Of a stretch of 64,000 nucleotides of DNA, positions 4,417 to 62,245 are shown piece after piece; position 1 is the first letter of the stretch, and every line of letters starts with the position of its first letter. The notes beneath the pieces are model-generated. The model was not told where the DNA came from. It was given only the letters and a program-made list of their open reading frames with translations, and did not search any database. This stretch comes from Amycolatopsis sp. NBC_01480 (lineage in GTDB: Bacteria; Actinomycetota; Actinomycetes; Mycobacteriales; Pseudonocardiaceae): NCBI RefSeq assembly GCF_036227205.1, contig NZ_CP109442.1:5828001-5892000 (forward strand), read 5' to 3'. The position numbers and the translations under genes were made by a program.

Positions 4417-4499
4417 GGTCTCTCCCTCGGGACGGGGTGTTCCCCGCACTCTCGCATGATCCGGACCGGATGTGAGAGTCTTTCACGTTCAAGTGTCCT

Positions 4500-5046
4500 G
4501 CACGCGGGTGACGAGGAAGGTCGCGTTTCGCGAGGATTCCGGACGGCCGGGGGTGGGATTGCCCGGATTCCGGGCTTGGCGCGGTTGCTGCCGTGCGCCG
4601 GTCCGGGCATGTTGGCCATGGCTGGTCGCCGGGTCGGCCCGGGTTGGTTACTGGGTCTGCCTGCGAGGACTGGTCACCGGATCGGCCAGAACTGGGCGGC
4701 GGGTCGGCCGGCCAACGCCGATCGCGGTAGGCCGATCAAGTCGGCCAGGGCTGGGCCGTCGGACAGCCAGCCAGAGCTGGGTCGCCGGGTAGGTCAGTCT
4801 CCTCGGTGAGGGTCGGTCGCCGGGTTCGGCCAGCCAGAGTTGGGCGTCGGTCAGGTTGGCCGGGGCCGGGCACAGGGTTGGCCAGCCAGGGGGTGGCCGA
4901 TCAGGGTCGGTCGGAGCCGGTCGCGGCTGAACCGAGCGGGTCGGGCAGGGCTGGTCGGTGGGTGAGCCGGGTTGGGTCGATCGGCTCTGCGGTCGGCGAA
5001 TCAGGCAGATCAGTCGGCGAATCAGCTGGCAAAGTCAGGCAGCAAA
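4500..5046. repeat. Gene-free low-complexity block of degenerate short repeats
   Basis: About 550 bases without a credible gene between the SGNH hydrolase (transcribed leftward) and the 3' end of the GntR gene. The DNA is built of degenerate units around GTCGGCCAGCCAGAG and TTGGGTCGCCGGGT on the plus strand. Close to the GntR stop the spacing becomes short, with TCAG and AATCAG motifs repeated every 13-20 bases (4990-5050). The open frames crossing it are unbroken only because stop codons are rare at this GC content; none shows protein-like composition. The promoter of the hydrolase gene should lie near 4420-4500, but I recognise no clear boxes. Confidence 0.6.
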
Positions 5047-7050: not shown

Positions 7051-7096
7051 CTCGTGAGTGTCTATGCCGGTTAGAACCGTCATAGACACTCACGAG
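7051..7096. repeat. Palindromic intergenic repeat, family A copy 2 (bidirectional terminator-like)
   Basis: This 46-base inverted repeat has the same length and nearly the same sequence as the one at 3395-3440. The arms are 7051-7072 and 7075-7096 around AG, with one mismatch. It begins on the base after the transporter's stop codon and ends five bases before the stop of the mycothione reductase gene. The T at position 12 of copy 1 is C here, and the partner arm carries the compensating change, so pairing is maintained. Confidence 0.85.
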
Positions 7097-7101
7097 GGGC
7101 G

Positions 7102-15302: not shown

Positions 15303-16823
15303 ATGGATTACGACGCGGTGATCGTGGGCGGCGGACACAACGGCCTGGTGGCGGCGGCTTATCTGGCACGAGCGGGCCGCTCGGTCCTGGTGCTGGAGCG
15401 GCGGGCCGAGACGGGCGGCGCGGCGGTGTCGTTCCGCGCGTTCGAGGGCGTGGACGTGCGGCTGTCCCGGTATTCGTACCTGGTCAGCCTGCTGCCGCGG
15501 AAGATCGTCGAGGACCTGGGGCTCGACATCGAGCTGCGGCGGCGCCGGATGTCGTCCTACACCCCGGCTGGCAATTCGGGTCTCCTTGTCGACACGGGGG
15601 ACGAGGCGCGCACGGCGGCGGCGTTCCGCGCCGTCACGGGATCCACAAAGGACTTCGACGCCTGGCGCCGGTTCTACGCGCTGGCCGGGAAGGTCGCGGC
15701 GACGACGTTCGACACGCTCACCTCGCCGTTGCCCAGCCGCGCCGAGCTGAGGCAGCGGATCGGCGACGACGAGGCGTGGTCGATGTTCTTCGAGCGGCCG
15801 ATCGGGGAGACGCTCACCGGGCTGTTCGACGACGACACCGTGCGCGGCGTGGTGCTCACCGACGCGCTGATCGGGACTTTCGCCCCGGCGTCGGATGAAG
15901 AACTGCGGCAGAACCGCTGCCTGCTGTATCACCTGATCGGCAACGGCACGGGTGACTGGGACGTGCCGGTCGGCGGGATGGGCGCGGTCACCGGCGCGCT
16001 GGCGGACGCCGCGCGACGGGCGGGCGCCACGCTTGTCACCGGCGCCGAGGTGCAATCGGTGACGCCTGACGGTTCGGTGCGCTACACGCTCGAAGGCGCG
16101 TCACGGGTCGTCTCGGCTGGGCATGTGCTGGCGAACGTCGCGCCGCGCACGCTCGCGCGGTTACTCGGTGAGGAGCCAGGCGAGGCTCCGGAGGGCGCGC
16201 AACTGAAGGTCAACATGGTGCTTTCGCGGCTGCCCCGCCTGCGCGACACGACCGTCGACCCGCGCGACGCGTTCGGCGGCACTTTCCACGTCAACGAGAC
16301 GTTCTCGCAGCTGGAGACCGCGTACGCCGAGGCCGCCGCGGGGCGGATCCCGTCGCTGCCGCCGTGCGAGATCTACTGCCACTCGCTCACGGACCCGTCG
16401 ATCCTGGGCCCGGCGGAGCGCGCGGCGGGCGTCCAGACGCTCACGCTTTTCGGCCTGCACATGCCGGCGCGCCTGTTCGAGGCGAACAACGACGTGGCCC
16501 GGGCCGAAGCCCTGCGCGCGACGCTGGCGTCCCTGAACACCGTCCTGGCCGAGCCGATCGAGGATTGTTTGCTGCGGGATGAGGCCGGGCGCCCGTGCGT
16601 CGAGGCGAAGACGCCGCTGGACCTGGAGGCGGAGCTGGGGCTGCCGCGCGGGCACATCTTTCACCGGGATCTGTCGTGGCCGTTCTCGGATTCGGCCGCC
16701 GGGACTTGGGGCGTCGAGACGGCGTATCCGCGGGTGTTGCTGTGCGGTGCGGGTGCCGTTCGGGGTGGTGGGGTGAGCGGGATTCCTGGCCACAACGCGG
16801 CGATGGCGGTGCTGGCTGGTTGA
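15303..16823 (+). CDS. FAD-dependent oxidoreductase, phytoene-desaturase/PYROXD2-like
   Basis: A flavoprotein of 506 residues. The N-terminal dinucleotide fold is AVIVGGGHNGLVAAAYLARA (4-23), followed by VLVLERRAETGGAAVS. Near the C-terminus VLLCGAGAVRGGGVSGIPGH is the second FAD-contact motif of the CrtI/amine-oxidase superfamily. Overall it matches the NAD(P)/FAD oxidoreductase group that includes vertebrate PYROXD2. No phytoene synthase or other carotenoid gene lies nearby, so carotenoid desaturation is not supported. The ATG at 15303 is followed at once by the FAD fold. The gene's last 90 bases are repeated three more times downstream (see 16842-17170). The substrate is unknown. Confidence 0.88.
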   Translation: MDYDAVIVGGGHNGLVAAAYLARAGRSVLVLERRAETGGAAVSFRAFEGVDVRLSRYSYLVSLLPRKIVEDLGLDIELRRRRMSSYTPAGNSGLLVDTGDEARTAAAFRAVTGSTKDFDAWRRFYALAGKVAATTFDTLTSPLPSRAELRQRIGDDEAWSMFFERPIGETLTGLFDDDTVRGVVLTDALIGTFAPASDEELRQNRCLLYHLIGNGTGDWDVPVGGMGAVTGALADAARRAGATLVTGAEVQSVTPDGSVRYTLEGASRVVSAGHVLANVAPRTLARLLGEEPGEAPEGAQLKVNMVLSRLPRLRDTTVDPRDAFGGTFHVNETFSQLETAYAEAAAGRIPSLPPCEIYCHSLTDPSILGPAERAAGVQTLTLFGLHMPARLFEANNDVARAEALRATLASLNTVLAEPIEDCLLRDEAGRPCVEAKTPLDLEAELGLPRGHIFHRDLSWPFSDSAAGTWGVETAYPRVLLCGAGAVRGGGVSGIPGHNAAMAVLAG

Positions 16824-16841
16824 GCGGTGGCTGGGTCGGAT

Positions 16842-17170
16842 CGGGTGTTGCTGTGCGGTGCGGGTGTCGTCCGGAGCGCCGGGGTGAGCGGGATTCCCGG
16901 CCGTGCCGCGGCGAGGGGTGTTGACTGGCTGAGCGCCTGTTGGTGGCGTCGGCTGGTGGTGTCAGCTGGACCGGATCGGGTGCTGTTGTGTGGTGCGGGC
17001 GCTGCCCGGGCGCAGTGGGGTGAGCGGGATCTCTGGCCATAAAGCGGCGATGGCAGTGCTGGCCGGTTGAGCGGCGGTTGGTGCTGTTGTGCGGTGCGGG
17101 TGCAGTCCGGAGTGGCGGGGTGAGCGGGATCCCTGGCCGTAGTGCGGCGATGGCGGCGTTGGCCAGTTGA
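16842..17170 (+). repeat. Three degenerate tandem copies of the 3' end of the preceding gene
   Basis: The last about 93 bases of the oxidoreductase gene (16731-16823, coding VLLCGAGAVRGGGVSGIPGH through the stop) recur at 16842-16933, 16977-17070 and about 17079-17170. Each copy keeps GGTGAGCGGGAT and a terminal TGA, and each is partly diverged. In two copies the same peptide can still be read (VLLCGAGVVRSAGVSGIPG). They sit in the gap before the next oxidoreductase gene. No separate gene is supported here, and the spacer bases between copies are of the same GGTTGG-rich type. The promoter of the downstream gene must lie within or just after this block. Confidence 0.85.
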
Positions 17171-17260
17171 GTGTCGGCCGGTGGCTTCGGCTGGTGCTGT
17201 CGGCCGTGCCGTGTCGGGTAAAGGTCGACGGCGCGGTGCGGAGCGGGCAATGTGGAGACC

Positions 17261-18505
17261 ATGCGCGTGATCGTGATCGGCAGTGGGATCGGCGGAGCGG
17301 CGACGGCGTACCAGCTCGCCGCGCGGGGTGCGGAGGTCGTGGCGGTGGACGCGCCCCGGCCGGGGGTGGCCACCGAGGCGGGCGCCGGGATCGTCAGCCC
17401 GTGGACCTCTCGCTGGGACAATCAGATCTACCCGCTGGCGGCCGCCGCGGGGGCGTACTACCCGGAGCTGGCTGCGGCGCTGGCGGAGCAGGGGCAGCAG
17501 ACGTCGTACGAGGTCGTCGGCGGCATGGTGGTTTCGGAGTCGGCGGCCGAGCTGGACGAGGCCGAGGCGTTGCTGCTCTCGCGTGTCGCGGAGGCGCCCG
17601 GAGCGGGCAAGGTCAGCCGCCTCGATCCGGACCAGGCGCGCTCGCTGTTCCCGTTGCTCGCTCCGGATCTCGGCGCCGTCCACCTCTCCGGCGCGGGCCG
17701 CGTCGACGGCCGCCGGATCCGCCGGGCCCTGATCGCCGCAGCGAAACAGCGCGGCGCCCGTTTCGTGCGGGCGATGGCCTCCCTGCTGCCGAACGTTCCC
17801 GCCATCGTCGGGACGGGCACGGCCGGGCCGGTCGGCGGAACGGGCACAGCCAGGTCGGTCGCTGGGCCGGTTGCCGGGCGAGGCGCGGCCGGGCCGGTCG
17901 GCGGGCCGGGCTCGGGTGCTCCGCTCACCACCGCGAACGGCCGATGGCGCGTCACCGCCGGCAGCGAGGAACTGACCGCCGACGCCGTGGTGCTCGCAGC
18001 GGGCGCTTGGTCGGCCGCGGTGGCTGAGCGGCTGGGGCTGGTCGTCCCAGTGGCGCCGCAGCGGGGGCAGATCACCCACTTCGAGCTGCCGGGCACCGAT
18101 ACCGCCGCGTGGCCGGTTGTGCTGCCGCGGTCGAGTCATTACCTGCTGTCGTTCCCGGGTGGCCACGTCGTCGCCGGGGCCACCCGCGAGACCGGCTCCG
18201 GCTTCGACCACCGCGTGACGGCAGCCGGCCAGCGCGAGGTACTCGACCACGCCCTCGCCGTGGCCCCGGGCCTCGCCGACAGCACCCTCGCCGAAACCCG
18301 CATCGGCTTCCGCCCCGCAACCCCCGACACCCTGCCCCTGCTCGGCGCCGTCGACGCCCACCCCGGCCTGTGGCTCGCGACCGGCTTCGGCCCAGCAGGG
18401 CTCACCCTCGCGCCATACGCCGGCAAGCTGATCGCCGACCTCGTCCTCGGCGGCGATGTCCCGGCGGACCTGCTCGCGCCTTGCTCGCCTGCCCGCTTCG
18501 GCTGA
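17261..18505 (+). CDS. FAD-dependent amino-acid oxidase/dehydrogenase (DAO fold)
   Basis: A flavoprotein of 414 residues of the D-amino-acid oxidase/DadA/glycine oxidase group. VIVIGSGIGGAATAYQLAAR is the FAD fold at the N-terminus, GAGIVSPW follows, ADAVVLAAGAWS is the mid-chain motif, and RPATPDTLPLLGAVD with GFGPAGLTLAPYAG close the FAD domain as in DadA. Residues about 184-222 are an Ala/Gly/Pro-rich insert absent from normal family members, coded by repeats of GGGCCGGTCGGCGG type. The ATG at 17261 begins the FAD fold; a GTG at 17252 is an alternative. The gene's final 48 bases are the first unit of a 50-base tandem array beyond the stop. The amino-acid substrate cannot be named. Confidence 0.86.
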   Translation: MRVIVIGSGIGGAATAYQLAARGAEVVAVDAPRPGVATEAGAGIVSPWTSRWDNQIYPLAAAAGAYYPELAAALAEQGQQTSYEVVGGMVVSESAAELDEAEALLLSRVAEAPGAGKVSRLDPDQARSLFPLLAPDLGAVHLSGAGRVDGRRIRRALIAAAKQRGARFVRAMASLLPNVPAIVGTGTAGPVGGTGTARSVAGPVAGRGAAGPVGGPGSGAPLTTANGRWRVTAGSEELTADAVVLAAGAWSAAVAERLGLVVPVAPQRGQITHFELPGTDTAAWPVVLPRSSHYLLSFPGGHVVAGATRETGSGFDHRVTAAGQREVLDHALAVAPGLADSTLAETRIGFRPATPDTLPLLGAVDAHPGLWLATGFGPAGLTLAPYAGKLIADLVLGGDVPADLLAPCSPARFG

Positions 18506-18510
18506 CCTCG

Positions 18511-18856
18511 GCCGGTTGGCCTGTTCGCGCCGTGCCGCCCGGCCGGTTCGGTTGAACTCGGCTGGTTGAGCTGGTTGAGCCGTGTTTGCCCGCCCGGTTC
18601 GGTTGAAGCGGGCTGGTGGCCTGGTTGAGCCGTGCTTGCCTGCCTGGTTAGGTTGAACCTCTGATCTGGCCGCGCCGTGCTTGCCTGCCCGGTCCGGCTG
18701 AACTCGGCCGGGTGGCCTGGCTGCAGCGTGCTTGCCTGCCGGTTTGGCTGAACCTGGCTTGGTGGCTTGGTTGCGGGTTCTCGCCCGGCCGGTTCAGCTC
18801 GACTCGGCCGGTTGGCCTGCGTGCACCGTGCTCGCTCGCCGGTTCAGTTGAACTCG
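18511..18856 (+). repeat. Seven-unit ~50-base tandem array derived from the 3' end of the preceding gene
   Basis: Units lie at 18511-18560, 18561-18610, 18611-18660, 18661-18706 (46 bases), 18707-18756, 18757-18806 and 18807-18856. Shared features are GGTTGGCCTG near the start, GTGCTTGCCTGCC in the middle and GGTTGAACTCG at the end. The last 48 bases of the gene with its stop (18463-18510, ending TTCGGCTGACCTCG) align as unit zero. The array fades out by about 18900. No gene is supported from 18506 to 18997. Confidence 0.88.
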
Positions 18857-18997
18857 GCCGGGTTGACCGGAGTTTGGAGGCGGGCTGGCCGTTCGCCGGT
18901 GATGGCCCGGGTTTCGAGGCGGGCCGCTAGCTGGTGATCGGTCGGGGTGTTGGGGTGGGTCGGCCTCGCGCTGGTGATTGGCCGGGGTGTCGGGCGG

Positions 18998-19741
18998 TCA
19001 GCCGGTGAGGAGTTCCAGGCTGTGGTCGCCGGTGCGCTCGACCGTGAGGCCCGCCTTGGTGATCACCTTCACCAGCTGGTCCACAGTGGACGGTTCGGCC
19101 CGGGTGGTGGCCAGGACCGCGGCCAGCCGGCCCTTGTAGGCCTTGTTGAAGTGGCTGACCGTGGTGCGGTTGCCGTGGGCGTCTTCCGTCACTACGCGGA
19201 CGGTCACCGCGTCCGGGCGCAGTCGTGCGAAGGCCGCGTACGTGCCCGAGCGCAGGTCGACCACCAGGCCGTCGATGCCTTGCAGCACCGGCTCCAGCAC
19301 TGGCTTCCACAGTCCGCGGACGGTGCCCAGCGCGGGCACGGAGTTGCTGCCCGAAAGCCGGTACGCGGGGATCGGGTCGGTCGCGGAGACCACGCCGAAC
19401 AGCGCCGACGTCAGGGCCAGGCGGCGCTGCGCCTTTTCCAGGCCTGCGCGGGTGAAGCTCTTCATGTCGAGCGCGTCGTAGAGCACGCCGGTGTAGCGGC
19501 GCAGCGCGGGCAGCGTCGGGGAGGTCCAGAGCTGCGCGTTGCGGGTGACCTCGTCGCGCTGGCGTTCGGAGATGCCGAGGGTGGCGAGGCTGGCCGGGAC
19601 GTCGCGGGCCAGCTCGACGAGCGCGTCCGCGAGCTTGGCCCGCACGGGGTTCAGCTCGGGGAAGGACAGCGCGCCGTGGTCGAGGGGCGGGCCGTCGCCG
19701 CCGTCGGCTTTGGTCTCGGAAGGGGGAAGCAGCACCAGCAC
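18998..19741 (-). CDS. yaaA: YaaA-family peroxide-stress protein
   Basis: A DUF328/UPF0246 protein of 247 residues. The diagnostic start is LVLLPPSETK, and family motifs YTGVLYDALD, RRLALTSALFGVV, DPIPAYRLS and SHFNKAYKGRL (with the conserved Asn-Lys-Ala) are all present. In Escherichia coli YaaA limits free iron and DNA damage during hydrogen peroxide stress, and the fold binds DNA; a role in this organism is inferred from that. The start is GTG at 19739-19741, with 66 bases to the divergent acetyltransferase gene. Downstream lies the gene-free repeat block. The family identification is secure. Confidence 0.93.
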   Translation of the reverse strand: MLVLLPPSETKADGGDGPPLDHGALSFPELNPVRAKLADALVELARDVPASLATLGISERQRDEVTRNAQLWTSPTLPALRRYTGVLYDALDMKSFTRAGLEKAQRRLALTSALFGVVSATDPIPAYRLSGSNSVPALGTVRGLWKPVLEPVLQGIDGLVVDLRSGTYAAFARLRPDAVTVRVVTEDAHGNRTTVSHFNKAYKGRLAAVLATTRAEPSTVDQLVKVITKAGLTVERTGDHSLELLTG

Positions 19742-24194: not shown

Positions 24195-25466
24195 GTGTTC
24201 GGCCGCGACCGCAAGCGCCGGGACGGCGGCTACCAGGACAACGCCGCCCTGACCGGCTTCGGCGGCTACGAGCCGTCGGACACACCGACAACCGGGTACG
24301 GCGAGGTTCGGCCCGAGGCCACGCGGCCAGGCGGGACGGCTTCGGGTGTCGCCGAGCCTTTCGGGCCAGGCGGGACGGCTTCGGGTGTCGCCCAGCCTTT
24401 CGGGTCGGGCGGAACGGCTTCGGGTGTCGCCGAACCGTCTGGGCCTGGCGGGACGGCTTCGGGTGTCGCGGAGCCTTTCGGGCCAGGCGGAGCGGCTTCG
24501 GGCGCCGAACCTTCCGGGCTGGGCGGAACGGCTTCGGGTGTCGAGCCTTTCGGGCCGGGCGGGACGACTTCGGGCGCCGAACCGTTGCGCGGCAAGGGAT
24601 TCGGGACGCGCACCGACCCGGCGGGCCGCGCGAATCCCGGCTCGGCCCAGGGTTCTTGGCCCAGCGCCGCGTCGTCCGCCGGGCCTGGCGTCCGGGCCGA
24701 GCCCCAGCGGATCCGCCCGCCCGCGAAGCCAGGCCGCAAACGCCGGGGCTCGCGGGTCGCGTGGGTGGTGGTCGTGGTGCTCGGGCTGGGTGCGGCGGCG
24801 CTGAACGTCTTCAGCACCGGCAACCACCGCTCCACGCCAAACCGTCCGCCGGTCGGTTACACACCCGAGCCACGGGTGACCGTTCCCGCCGTGGTGGCCG
24901 GGTGGCAATCCGTGCCGGGCCGCGATGGCTCGTACGCCTACGACGTGCCGCCGAGCTGGACACCCAAGCCCGGCACGGTGCACGGCTGGGACAAAACCGC
25001 CACCGCGCCCGGGATCACGCTCAGCACCAGCGCCTTTGTCGACGAGGGTTTCTGCCCCGGCGTCAGCGGCAGCCGCCGCGGCGGGGCCGGGGTGACGACG
25101 GAGCCGACCGGTGACGCGGAGCAGGCCGTCCGCAAGGCCGTCGACGACCTGGCCGTGAGCGCGTACGGCCCCGAATCCGCAAAGACGCCGGAGCCGGCAG
25201 AAGACGCCACCCTCCAAATCGGCCAAGCACAAAAGCCGACCCGCATGGTCTTCGCCGACGTCGCGCCAAAGGACGATGACCCGTGCACCTCGAAGCACGT
25301 GCTGGTCGGCGCGATCGCCATTTCCGGCCCGGCCTCGTCCGCCGTGCTGGTGGCGTACGCCGACCAGGAAGTGCCGGGAGCCCGCGAGGACCTGACGCGC
25401 ATCCTGCGCAGCTACCGCGGCGTGCTCGCCTCCGACCGGGCCACCTCGACGCCCGCCACCCGCTGA
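24195..25466 (+). CDS. Single-pass membrane protein with repeat-rich cytoplasmic region, function unknown
   Basis: A 423-residue protein I do not recognise by name. Residues 1-45 are polar (FGRDRKRRDGGYQ). Residues 45-132 are seven copies of a 12-13-residue Gly/Ala/Ser/Pro repeat (consensus GGTASGVAEPFGP). A basic stretch RPPAKPGRKRRGSR precedes one membrane helix, VAWVVVVVLGLGAAALNVF (about 193-211). The outer domain (about 225-415) has a compact look, with AVVAGWQSVPGRDGSYAYDV and two Cys (GFCPGVSG, DDPCTSKH) that could form a disulfide. Orientation by the positive-inside rule puts the C-terminus outside. It may be co-transcribed with proS, and its 3' end overlaps the convergent gene by 55 bases. 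Confidence 0.75.
   Translation: MFGRDRKRRDGGYQDNAALTGFGGYEPSDTPTTGYGEVRPEATRPGGTASGVAEPFGPGGTASGVAQPFGSGGTASGVAEPSGPGGTASGVAEPFGPGGAASGAEPSGLGGTASGVEPFGPGGTTSGAEPLRGKGFGTRTDPAGRANPGSAQGSWPSAASSAGPGVRAEPQRIRPPAKPGRKRRGSRVAWVVVVVLGLGAAALNVFSTGNHRSTPNRPPVGYTPEPRVTVPAVVAGWQSVPGRDGSYAYDVPPSWTPKPGTVHGWDKTATAPGITLSTSAFVDEGFCPGVSGSRRGGAGVTTEPTGDAEQAVRKAVDDLAVSAYGPESAKTPEPAEDATLQIGQAQKPTRMVFADVAPKDDDPCTSKHVLVGAIAISGPASSAVLVAYADQEVPGAREDLTRILRSYRGVLASDRATSTPATR
24327..24590 (+). repeat. Seven in-frame 36-39-base coding repeats
   Basis: Seven tandem units, four of 39 and three of 36 bases, each containing GGCGG[GA]ACGGCTTCGGG, encode the Gly/Ala-rich repeat of the membrane protein at 24195-25466. Length changes are whole codons, so the frame is kept, as expected if the peptide is expressed and tolerated. 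Confidence 0.9.
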
Positions 25467-31002: not shown

Positions 31003-31104
31003 GGACTCCTTGCCCGCGTGGGACGCCGCGAGGGAGTCCTTGCCCGCGTGGGACGCCGCGAGGGAGTCCTTGCCCGCGTGGGACGCGGTGAAGGAGTCCT
31101 TCAC
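31003..31104. repeat. 30-base tandem repeat ending in a perfect hairpin, family B
   Basis: Three near-identical 30-base units lie at 31003-31032, 31033-31062 and 31063-31092, sharing TCCTTGCCCGCGTGGGACGC. A fourth, partial unit changes into GTGAAGG-AGT-CCTTCAC (31088-31104), a perfect 7-base-arm hairpin. The block lies between the histidine kinase start and the 3' end of the 85-residue gene, both on the minus strand, so it may terminate the desaturase-side transcript. The rest of 30923-31114 shows no gene. Confidence 0.85.
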
Positions 31105-32522: not shown

Positions 32523-33611
32523 TTAGGCGTGGATCTCGACGTCCCCGACGGGGACGCTGATGCAGAGCTGGATCTCCTCGTTCTCTTCGCCGGAGATCTC
32601 GCCGGTGCGCGCGTTGCGCACGCGCCCGGCGGTCTTGACCTGGGTGCAGGAGAAGCAGATGCCCATCCGGCAGCCGTGCTCCGGCGTCAGGCCCGCGTCC
32701 TCGGCCTGCTCCAGCAGCGGCTTGCCCGAGTTGTCGCACTCGCGCCCGCTGCGGGCGAAGCGCACCCGGCCCTCGGCAGCCTCCGCGTCGAAGGTCAACG
32801 GCGGGGCCGTGAACTCTTCAGTGTGCAGCCGTTCACTCAATCCCTCGGCGGCGAACTGCTCGCGGACCGAGTCCATCAGCGGCTTCGGGCCGCAGAGGTA
32901 GGTCTCGGCGTCGCGGTACCAGGGCGCGGCGGCGGCGAGGTGCTCCTTCGTGAAGAAGCCGTGCAGGTCCCCGCCGCGACGGCTGTGGGTGTGCGCGTGC
33001 ACCACGCGCAGGCCCGGGTGCTGCGCCGCGAGCGCGTCCAGCTCCTCGCGGTAGAGCACGTCGGACGCGGTGTTGGAGTAGTGCAGGAACACGATCTCGC
33101 CCTGGTGCCCCTCGGCGACGAGCGTGCGCACCATCGCGAGCACCGGCGTGACCCCGCTGCCGCCGCTGACCAAGAGGATCTTCTCCGGCCGCGGCGTCGG
33201 CAGCGTGAACTCACCGTCCGGTTCGGACAGTCCGAAGACCGAGCCGACGCGAGTGGTCTCCTGCAGGTACCGGGAGACCAGGCCGTGCGGGTCGGCTTTC
33301 ACGGTGAACTCGAGGTCACCGCCCTGCGGGCCGCACGGCGAGTAGCAGCGGGTGCGCCGCACGCCGTCGATCTCCACGGTCAGCCGCACGTACTGGCCGG
33401 CGGTGAAGTCCCGCCACGCGCGGCTCGGCCGGACGCTGAACGTGACCGTGTCCGGCGTCTGGCGCCGCACGGCCGTGACCCGCCCGCGGATCTCGCGGCG
33501 GACCAGCATCGGGTCGACGAGTTCCAGGTAGCGGTCGACGCCGTGCGGGGTGAGCAGTGCCTCGGCGAGCGAGGCGAGGCTGCGTACCCGGCGGGGGAGC
33601 AGGGTGGCCAT
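32523..33611 (-). CDS. FAD/2Fe-2S oxidoreductase, electron donor to the desaturase
   Basis: A 362-residue soluble electron-transfer protein with three domains in order. The FAD domain (about 35-130) has RCYSPCGP as its flavin motif. The NAD(P)H domain (about 130-250) has LVSGGSGVTPVLAMVRTL and YLCGPKPLMDSVR. The C-terminal plant-type ferredoxin domain (about 270-360) has the cluster cysteines in GCRMGICFSC plus a distal Cys in IQLCISVPV. It passes electrons from NAD(P)H to the membrane desaturase encoded next. The ATG at 33609-33611 follows GGAGG and was preferred to an in-frame start at 33647, which lies inside the operator palindrome. Confidence 0.94.
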   Translation of the reverse strand: MATLLPRRVRSLASLAEALLTPHGVDRYLELVDPMLVRREIRGRVTAVRRQTPDTVTFSVRPSRAWRDFTAGQYVRLTVEIDGVRRTRCYSPCGPQGGDLEFTVKADPHGLVSRYLQETTRVGSVFGLSEPDGEFTLPTPRPEKILLVSGGSGVTPVLAMVRTLVAEGHQGEIVFLHYSNTASDVLYREELDALAAQHPGLRVVHAHTHSRRGGDLHGFFTKEHLAAAAPWYRDAETYLCGPKPLMDSVREQFAAEGLSERLHTEEFTAPPLTFDAEAAEGRVRFARSGRECDNSGKPLLEQAEDAGLTPEHGCRMGICFSCTQVKTAGRVRNARTGEISGEENEEIQLCISVPVGDVEIHA

Positions 33612-37311: not shown

Positions 37312-38037
37312 GGCGGGTCGGATATACGCGCCGAATTCGCTGAGCCGACCGAGAACCTGGCGTTCGACGAGGCGCTGCTGCGCGTCGAGCCTTCGGCGCC
37401 GGTGTTGTGGCTGTGGCGCAACCCGGTGTGCGTGGTGGTCGGGCGAGGGCAGAAGGTGGCGCGCGAGGTGCGTGTCGCGGAATGCGCGCGGGACGGCGTC
37501 CCGGTCCTGCGCCGTGCGAGCGGCGGCGGCACGGTTTTCCACGACCCGGGGAACCTGAACGTGACTTTGGTGCTGCCAGGCCCGCCGCCGCGGCCGTTGG
37601 AAATGCTGGGGCTGGTCATGTCGGCGGCGGTGGAGAAGCTGGGCCTGACGCCGACCCTGGGCGAGCGCGGCCTGTTCGTGGGCACCCAGAAGCTGTGTGG
37701 CTTCGCGGTCTTCCGCACGAAGGGCGGTCTGCTCGCGCACTCGACGCTGCTGGTCGACACGGATCCTTCGCGCGTCGGCGCGTACCTCACCGGCCCGCCG
37801 CCGGACCCGAAGCCGCTGGACTCGCACCGCAGCCCCGTCGCCTCGCTGTCCGGTCACGGCTTGTCGTTTGGCCCGGGTGAGGTGGAGTCGGTGGTCCGTG
37901 CGGCTGCCGGTTCGCTGCTCGGACCGCTTGAGCCGCGCTCGCCGTCTCCGGTCGAGCTGGACCGTCAGCGCACTTTGCTGCACACCCGTTACCACTACGA
38001 GGCCTGGCACACCGACGGACGGCAACGCCAAGCCTGA
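37306..38037 (+). CDS. lplA: Lipoate-protein ligase A family protein
   Basis: A 243-residue enzyme of the biotin/lipoate protein ligase fold. Family motifs are VLRRASGGGTVFHDPGNLNV (lipoate-binding RRxSGGG and GNLN) and GTQKLCGFAVFRTKGG, whose Lys is the conserved adenylate-stabilising residue. The protein would attach scavenged lipoate to 2-oxoacid dehydrogenase E2 or glycine-cleavage H protein. It lacks the small C-terminal accessory domain of E. coli LplA, so it is either the short (LplA-N) type or needs a partner protein. The GTG at 37306 follows 13 bases after pntB, and co-transcription with the pnt operon is likely. The terminator at 38045-38092 ends the unit. Confidence 0.88.
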   Translation: MNGGSDIRAEFAEPTENLAFDEALLRVEPSAPVLWLWRNPVCVVVGRGQKVAREVRVAECARDGVPVLRRASGGGTVFHDPGNLNVTLVLPGPPPRPLEMLGLVMSAAVEKLGLTPTLGERGLFVGTQKLCGFAVFRTKGGLLAHSTLLVDTDPSRVGAYLTGPPPDPKPLDSHRSPVASLSGHGLSFGPGEVESVVRAAAGSLLGPLEPRSPSPVELDRQRTLLHTRYHYEAWHTDGRQRQA

Positions 38038-48023: not shown

Positions 48024-48090
48024 CTGTCTATGACACCACGCGGACCCGCTCCGGCCGGATGCGGGCGGTCACCAAGTCCGACCGGCGTAA

Positions 48091-48107
48091 TTGGAGGAAA
48101 CCTCCAA
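48091..48107. promoter_or_regulatory. Perfect 17-base palindrome upstream of fabD, candidate FasR operator
   Basis: TTGGAGGAAACCTCCAA has 7-base perfect arms around AAA. It lies 68 bases upstream of the fabD start, in the only non-coding gap of the fatty-acid operon, directly after the gene for the PucR-type regulator. In Streptomyces the equivalent regulator FasR activates from the fabD promoter. The match of this exact site to the known one is not claimed. Confidence 0.65.
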
Positions 48108-48233
48108 CGGCCCGCCGTGAATCTCCGCCCTTAACCCAGATGCCTTGTGGGATTCAACCATTGCTTGCCGTGAAGTCGGTCACGGAGTGGTGAGGTCGCT
48201 GCCGCGGTGCGAACGGTCCCGCCCGGCCCGATG

Positions 48234-48345
48234 CGCCCCAATGCGGCGTTGGTTGCTCCAGCCCTGCCCCACCACCACCCTCAGCGGAGGCACTCCGTGC
48301 CCAGCCCTGATTCCACGCACCGAACGCCACATTGGGTGCGTTGGG
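48234..48345. repeat. Intergenic repeat, family C copy 2 (long form)
   Basis: Imperfect 20-base arms (48237-48256 and 48317-48336; 17 of 20 paired) enclose a 60-base core containing CCAGCCCTGCCCCACCACCA, shared almost base for base with the copy at 56407-56543. It lies 33 bases past the 3' end of the fasR gene on the minus strand and may separate fasR transcription from fabD. Confidence 0.82.
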
Positions 48346-48377
48346 TCCGGGGCCGGCTGGGGCGGCGCCGGCCGGGG

Positions 48378-56319: not shown

Positions 56320-56406
56320 ACGGCGTTTCACGAGGTGGCTGAGATAGTGGTCACAACTGCCACGGCCCGTCAAGGCTGTGTCGCACGTCCGGCCCAGTGC
56401 CCGAAG

Positions 56407-56543
56407 CGCCCCAATGTGGCGTTGGTTGCTCCAGCCCTGCCCCACCACCACCCTCAACGGAAGCGCTCCGCGCCCAGCCCCGATTCCACGCACCCAATGT
56501 GGCGTTCGGTGCGTTGGACGCATCGAACGCCACATTGGGGCGC
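56407..56543. repeat. Intergenic repeat, family C copy 3 (long form plus second hairpin)
   Basis: This copy repeats the 60-base core of the copy at 48234-48345 and adds a better hairpin: 21-base arms at 56493-56513 and 56519-56539 with one mismatch around TTGGA. It lies just beyond the 3' end of lldD on the minus strand, in the 297-base gap before lldP. No gene is seen in that gap. Confidence 0.85.
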
Positions 56544-56577
56544 ATTCGGCCCGGGGGTGAGGTGGGGCTGGTGGGGG

Positions 56578-62170: not shown

Positions 62171-62245
62171 GGGCGCATAGCTCAGCGGAAGAGCACTCGG
62201 TTTACACCCGAGCGGTCGCAGGTTCGAACCCTGCTGCGCCCACCA
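62171..62245 (+). tRNA. tRNA-Val (anticodon UAC), CCA encoded
   Basis: The 75 bases fold into a standard cloverleaf. The acceptor arms are GGGCGCA/TGCGCCC with discriminator A and an encoded CCA end. The D-arm is in TAGCTCAGCGGAAGAGCA, the anticodon stem CTCGG/CCGAG encloses loop TTTACAC with anticodon TAC, and the T-arm GCAGG-TTCGAAC-CCTGC is canonical. It reads GUA valine codons, which are rare in GC-rich genomes. It lies between ahpE and a terminator and is single. Confidence 0.97.

Follow-up and report, generated by a model that had tools for sequence, protein, structure and literature searches.

The window analysed here, a 64,000-nt stretch of the Amycolatopsis sp. NBC_01480 genome, contains two adjacent plus-strand genes that are each followed by a tandem array. 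The second of these, a DAO-family FAD oxidoreductase gene, converges on a YaaA-family gene, and its array lies between the two. The features of the locus are as follows.

15303-16823, plus strand: FAD amine-oxidase-family gene (PF01593), from whose 3' end the first array arose
16731-17171, plus strand: first array, with unit zero at 16731-16823 and copies at about 16868-16952, 16977-17073 and 17080-17171
17252-18505, plus strand: DAO-family FAD oxidoreductase gene (PF01266, E = 2.3e-58), the source of the second array
18469-18518, plus strand: unit zero, made up of the terminal 37 nt of the gene, including the stop codon TGA (18503-18505), and 13 nt downstream
18519-18567, plus strand: unit 1
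18568-18618, plus strand: unit 2
18619-18662, plus strand: unit 3, the shortest (44 nt)
18663-18714, plus strand: unit 4
18715-18762, plus strand: unit 5
18763-18813, plus strand: unit 6, which differs by 22-33% from each other unit
18814-18863, plus strand: unit 7
18864-18997, no strand assigned: remaining inserted spacer, containing three weak matches of 33 nt each at a spacing of 35-40 nt
18998-19741, minus strand: convergent YaaA-family gene (PF03883)

TRF reported the second array at 18469-18863 with a period of 50, 8.0 copies, 72% matches and a score of 293. Higher-order periods of 95 and 196 also fit this stretch, the latter with a score of 416. When 18400-18950 was subjected to 1000 dinucleotide shuffles, the best score at a period of at least 20 was 81, and only 16 of the 1000 yielded any row of such a period at the TRF minimum score of 30. 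The first-pass annotation had described tandem units behind a DAO-type gene, with the gene end as unit zero and seven further units; TRF recovers this arrangement at scores far above those of the shuffles. The count of seven units behind unit zero holds, while the overlap with the coding sequence is 37 nt rather than the 48 bases first given, and units measure 44-52 nt in our tiling of 18469-18863 rather than 46-50. The eight units, each of about 50 nt, are arranged head to tail and fall within the size range of minisatellites or VNTRs (about 10-100 nt). Their mean unit-to-unit divergence is 23%.

A unit of about 50 nt beside a stop codon resembles MIRU-type elements (40-100 bp, as described in PMC2734929), and the array might be a MIRU- or REP-like dispersed repeat family that inserted here. 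However, when 2.4 Mb were searched with a profile of the units, the only hits below E = 0.87 were the eight at this locus. A whole-genome BLAST with 17252-19000 as query did not return the array a second time at E = 0.001, and there was no plasmid match. The many homologous genome copies expected of a MIRU/REP-type repeat did not appear in these searches, and insertion of such a family is hardly credible.

Gene-end origin and comparison with relatives

The nearest relative compared, G034, is about 95% identical to this genome in DNA. Over the shared stretch of roughly 100 kb, most aligned blocks are 92-96% identical and a few are lower; the median gene difference is 4.7% (89 genes). The DAO protein of G034 has an identical C-terminus, VLGGDVPADLLAPCSPARFG, without an array behind it, and the gap from the DAO end to the YaaA stop is 9 nt in G034 compared with 492 nt here. 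When aligned to 18515-18997, the G034 gene end scored 314, whereas 114 other windows of the same gene scored at most 142 (mean 36). Therefore, the link between the array and the DAO gene end is not a matter of chance. An equivalent unit zero on the YaaA side was sought in 18864-18997 and rejected, since the YaaA gene end scored 46 there and 63 other YaaA windows scored up to 52.

Because G034 has the same gene end beside a 9-nt gap, the DAO gene end is ancestral and the array grew beside it; the alternative, that the gene extended into an existing array, does not fit. CCGTG is carried by five of the seven copies, as by the G034 gene end, whereas the DAO gene of this genome has CCTTG. Copying therefore preceded the change from CCGTG to CCTTG in the gene. 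Inside the DAO gene, a Gly/Ala/Pro-rich tandem-repeat linker (17805-17909) is unaligned in most other relatives and of like length in G034.

A DAO protein match was found in 56 of the 60 genomes searched, with the source genome counted among the 60. The convergent DAO-YaaA order is kept in all 15 relatives examined (G034 and 14 others), with end-to-end distances from about 3 to 510 nt. Three of the 14 others have an array in this gap, of other periods, and a scan of gaps of at least 30 nt found no array in the remaining 11. The array after the DAO gene of one relative, G029 (41 nt x 5.0), is real but does not derive from the gene end. The presence of an array thus differs between close relatives, as it does for minisatellites or VNTRs.

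The gap in G027, which is next in DNA similarity, is 16-19 nt and too short for an array. With very short gaps in both G034 and G027, a gain in this genome is the simpler reading, and the array most likely grew after this lineage split from that of G034. Alternatively, the array predates the split and was lost cleanly from G034 through collapse or deletion. Unit divergence of 23% is high for an array younger than a split of about 5%, which speaks for greater age, but G027 also has a very short gap, and a deletion would need to have stopped exactly at the YaaA stop codon. On balance, we regard an older array as rather unlikely.

A further possibility is that the array is a selected multi-hairpin transcription terminator between the convergent genes. 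The whole array does fold better than its shuffles (z = -6.5), and a consensus stem exists. Arrays simulated from the G034 gene end averaged z = +0.6 (16 runs), so that the stem must already have been acquired by the unit from which the copies were made. However, single units lie near shuffle level (z from 0.9 to -2.3, with one of eight below -1), and none of the eight consensus pairs shows a compensatory change. Neutral arrays simulated from the consensus unit averaged z = -4.5 and -4.7, and in 5 of the 32 z was no higher than -6.3. For the first array z is 0.1, and any array at all is present in this gap in only 3 of the 15 relatives (G034 counted). A stable hairpin in each unit, kept by compensatory change, is therefore not what we observe, and a selected terminator is highly improbable. 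Our search for terminator-like sites in 16700-19100 returned none, and Rfam matched a single feature of the window, a tRNA at 62171-62242. We found no evidence of function for the DAO array.

The neighbouring array and its C-to-T cluster

The first array, behind the gene at 15303-16823, has units of about 100 nt and is likewise absent from G034, where the gap behind this gene is 78 nt compared with 428 nt here. One 91-nt stretch of G034, which includes the end of this gene, aligns here both to that end and to the final copy in the array. Two adjacent genes with the same kind of terminal amplification had been claimed from the sequence, and this is confirmed: both arrays consist of gene-end copies, and G034 has neither. 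Among 556 three-prime gaps of the discovery sample described below, the DAO gene and the gene at 15303-16823 have the two highest gene-end scores (82 and 43).

The end of the gene at 15303-16823 also differs from G034 in an uneven way. In the stretch 16653-16802, 14 of 18 differences are C-to-T and none is G-to-A, a strand-coordinated pattern and the highest C-to-T count among 1415 coding windows of 150 nt. The cluster lies partly upstream of the repeated unit. When changes were assigned to this genome, the last 300 nt of the gene had 15 C-to-T and 0 G-to-A, compared with 8 and 9 in the rest of the gene (P = 0.001). Two further clusters relative to G034 lie at 25165-25314 (12 G-to-A and 1 C-to-T) and 37856-38005 (13 C-to-T and 0 G-to-A).

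We considered C-to-T hypermutation beside arrays as a general feature and rejected it. The DAO gene end has no such cluster, and six other array-flanking gene ends together have 10 C-to-T and 23 G-to-A changes, the opposite lean. Individually, these six ends have ratios of 4:5, 1:5, 0:1, 1:5, 1:6 and 3:1 (last 150 nt, gene strand, unpolarised). One could imagine that gene ends, chiefly those at which transcription converges, are copied anew by way of a long single-stranded intermediate, and that this intermediate also gives rise to strand-coordinated C-to-T showers in the neighbouring coding end, so that array birth and local hypermutation would be one event. We consider this very unlikely.

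Placement of arrays and constraint in gaps

We examined array placement in 2.4 Mb of the 10.1-Mb genome, divided into a 1.6-Mb discovery set (5.4-6.2, 1.0-1.4 and 8.0-8.4 Mb) and a 0.8-Mb hold-out (4.2-5.0 Mb) for which predictions were fixed beforehand. Genes were called by our own codon-model script, which misses repetitive genes. Of the 147 discovery arrays (period at least 15, score at least 60), 82 lie in genes and 50 between them, 14 straddle a stop codon, none straddles a start and one straddles both; the first array of the window was scored here as purely intergenic, as TRF misses diverged unit zeros. The 76 hold-out arrays comprise 42 in genes, 30 between genes, 3 that straddle a stop and 1 that straddles a start. 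Together, 17 arrays straddle a stop, 1 a start and 1 both.

For noncoding arrays, we used a filtered set of 40, which drops 33 possible coding repeats (those with a period divisible by three within an open frame of at least 250 codons), gene-centred arrays and gaps longer than 1500 nt; dropping gene-centred arrays also loses some stop-straddling ones. Convergent gaps hold 19 of the 40 in 19% of gap bases (P = 4e-5), divergent gaps hold 2 in 30% of gap bases (P = 2e-4), and 19 lie in tandem gaps. With the 33 possible coding repeats kept, the 73 arrays divide into 30 convergent, 4 divergent and 39 tandem. In the hold-out alone (period at least 20, score at least 80), 12 of 23 arrays lie in convergent gaps and 2 of 23 in divergent gaps. 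These data indicate that the bias of arrays towards gene 3' ends is real and replicated. A leading-strand G+T bias of the arrays, seen by eye in the discovery set, had mixed signs in the hold-out and was not reproduced.

This bias bears on the possibility that gene 3' ends are copied by a dedicated or transcription-linked process, with renewed copying of the gene end serving to repair breaks or R-loops at sites of transcript termination or convergence. Such copying would fit the 17 stop-straddling arrays against 1 start-straddling array and the two adjacent cases at this locus. It would also fit the unfiltered set, in which 16 of 73 arrays straddle a stop where a rough placement model with random founding expects about 8.6 (P = 0.015), and none straddles a start where it expects 4.5; in gaps of up to 600 nt, 13 of 42 unfiltered arrays straddle a stop against 6.5 expected (P = 0.016). 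Gene-end similarity of at least 36 points the same way, being present in 4 of 556 three-prime and 0 of 803 five-prime gaps of the discovery set and in 1 of 291 and 0 of 401 of the hold-out (combined, 5 of 847 against 0 of 1204, P = 0.012).

However, once possible coding repeats are dropped, 8 of 40 arrays straddle a stop against about 4.6 expected (Poisson P = 0.10, rough placement model), with 0 of 40 at starts against about 1.5 on the same model. For gene-end similarity, the hold-out alone at score 28 gives 3 of 291 three-prime and 1 of 401 five-prime gaps (P = 0.32). Of the 98 arrays outside genes, 80 (50 of 65 plus 30 of 33) have no gene-end overlap, although some unit zeros are too diverged for TRF, and at locus 4545351 the unit matching G034 originates past the stop codon and not in the gene end. 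Convergent gaps are also less constrained, as described below. Gene-end copying is therefore an unlikely explanation. The first-pass annotation had set its proposed copying of gene ends against arrays placed independently of stop codons. Placement in the 2.4-Mb sample is not independent of them, which supports the proposal in part. An excess of founding units at stop codons is possible and modest, at most about twofold over the rough model, and, because the expectation comes from that model, it may be real or an artefact.

To describe constraint, we compared gaps with their counterparts in G034. Divergence is 20.6% over 11 convergent gaps and 15.8% in the 4 of them whose lengths agree within 15 nt (196 nt); an earlier figure of 19.6% took in gaps of unequal length, hence the stricter value. 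Divergent gaps differ by 6.0% (15 gaps; 5.9% in 13 length-matched gaps) and the two tandem orders by 8.4% and 7.4%, compared with 11.6% at fourfold sites. Gaps whose length changed by more than 15 nt number 7 of 11 in the convergent class against 2 of 15 in the divergent class (P = 0.014), and 8 of 19 and 5 of 17 in the two tandem orders. The mean length change per gap is 88.6 nt for convergent, 78.9 and 29.9 nt for the tandem orders and 7.1 nt for divergent gaps. Without the DAO array, the neighbouring array and one mis-called gap, these values are 44.2, 24.8 and 24.6, and 6.6 nt.

Convergent gaps are thus the least constrained, and this relaxed constraint accounts for most of the bias towards stops. 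In this way, repeats in little-constrained DNA can seem to target stop codons. The argument is not universal, since spacers of Buchnera are described as having similar identity for all three gene orders (PMC3164680). The 23% divergence among units lies at or somewhat above the convergent-gap figures, so that the array can date from near the split, although with so small a sample greater age of the array or faster mutation may also account for the figure.

Growth of the array and comparable loci

We conclude that the DAO array is probably a degenerate minisatellite that arose through ordinary repeat growth, founded on a gene end in a little-protected gap. A tandem duplication in the convergent gap, by replication slippage or unequal recombination, would have happened to include the last ~37 nt of the DAO gene and its stop codon. 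The first copy would have kept the whole gene, making the duplication cheap. More units would have been gained through continued slippage or unequal exchange, some of them two or four at a time, and the copies would then have decayed by point mutation without selection. Arrays that straddle stops would survive, because a duplication at a 3' end disrupts neither a promoter nor a ribosome site, whereas those that straddle starts mostly would not. We infer the molecular step, slippage or recombination, and the neutrality of the process from these patterns.

Four observations count against growth of an ordinary minisatellite. Unfiltered stop-straddling arrays are about twice as frequent as random founding predicts. 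Gene-end similarity of at least 36 occurs in 5 of 847 three-prime gaps and in no five-prime gap. The unit divergence is twice the fourfold figure and exceeds the 15.8% of the very small cleanest set of convergent gaps, which would suit an array that is older than the split or faster-mutating. Finally, the sample's two strongest gene-end cases lie next to each other, which minisatellite growth would have to attribute to coincidence. If our conclusion is correct, the locus offers a clean before-and-after case of the birth of a bacterial minisatellite, with a readable founding unit and a close relative that lacks the array.

Slippage and recombination are described mechanisms for such repeats. 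The earlier remark that no described mechanism was known is therefore too strong, all the more so as arrays at gene ends have been reported in Borg elements (PMC9879509). Borg tandem repeats are described there as intergenic or as having a first unit within or partly within gene ends, and they resemble the DAO array in this placement and in being recently formed and locus-specific. In contrast, Borg units are perfect copies and A-rich, whereas the units here are about 23% diverged, GC-rich and on a bacterial chromosome. Arrays that begin inside gene ends are thus already published for Borgs, and the DAO array adds another such case.

The rnc-fpg1 repeats of the Mycobacterium tuberculosis complex (ETR-F/VNTR3239) are also actinobacterial and form an array of hundreds of bp in an otherwise short gap, which is 1-54 bp in the other mycobacteria tabulated (PMC2734929). 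They differ in that the gap runs from stop to start, the array begins 40 bp past the stop and ends at the next start, and repeat length is linked there to expression of fpg1. The bacterial long-unit satellites of PMC6749651, whose table lists Amycolatopsis mediterranei, are tandem arrays that occur in Actinobacteria and are partly intergenic. The term 'stop codon' is absent from the text of that article, in which placement at gene ends is accordingly not treated.

Six further arrays were compared with G034. Four of these (loci 1249463, 4382099, 4545351 and 6157245) have no like array there, although G034 holds a short 15-nt array at 6157245. At 1249463, each edge of the insert matches the last 24 nt of the G034 gene, a pattern that a tandem duplication spanning the end of a gene should produce. 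An array of about 90 nt is present in both genomes at 1099907, with 3.2 copies here and 2.1 in G034, an apparent sign of copy-number change. At 1368156, both genomes have arrays whose periods are different.

Other gaps and repeats of the window also differ from G034. A reverse case lies on contig C20 of G034 (reversed, 32946-33263), where 317 nt separate convergent genes that are 42 nt apart here; TRF reported no array in that 317-nt gap. Behind a minus-strand gene, the gap at 4417-5046 is full of weak G/T-rich repeats, and its G034 counterpart is longer and has three different arrays. A 39-nt x 6.6 repeat at 24325-24574 lies in an open frame adjoining proS and gives a 13-residue protein repeat; another repeat, 30 nt x 3.3, lies at 31003-31101. 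The G034 alignment skips most of each, and both look expanded here. A convergent gap contains a hairpin element at 7051-7101 (CTCGTGAGTGTCTATG...CATAGACACTCACGAG), where the G034 gap is 13 nt, and a similar hairpin lies just outside the window at about -565. Finally, 48024-48377 and 56332-56577 share an element of about 100 nt (GCACTCCGTGCCCAGCCC / GCGCTCCGCGCCCAGCCC and CGAACGCCACATTGGG), which G034 lacks wholly or for the most part and which looks like a small dispersed repeat.
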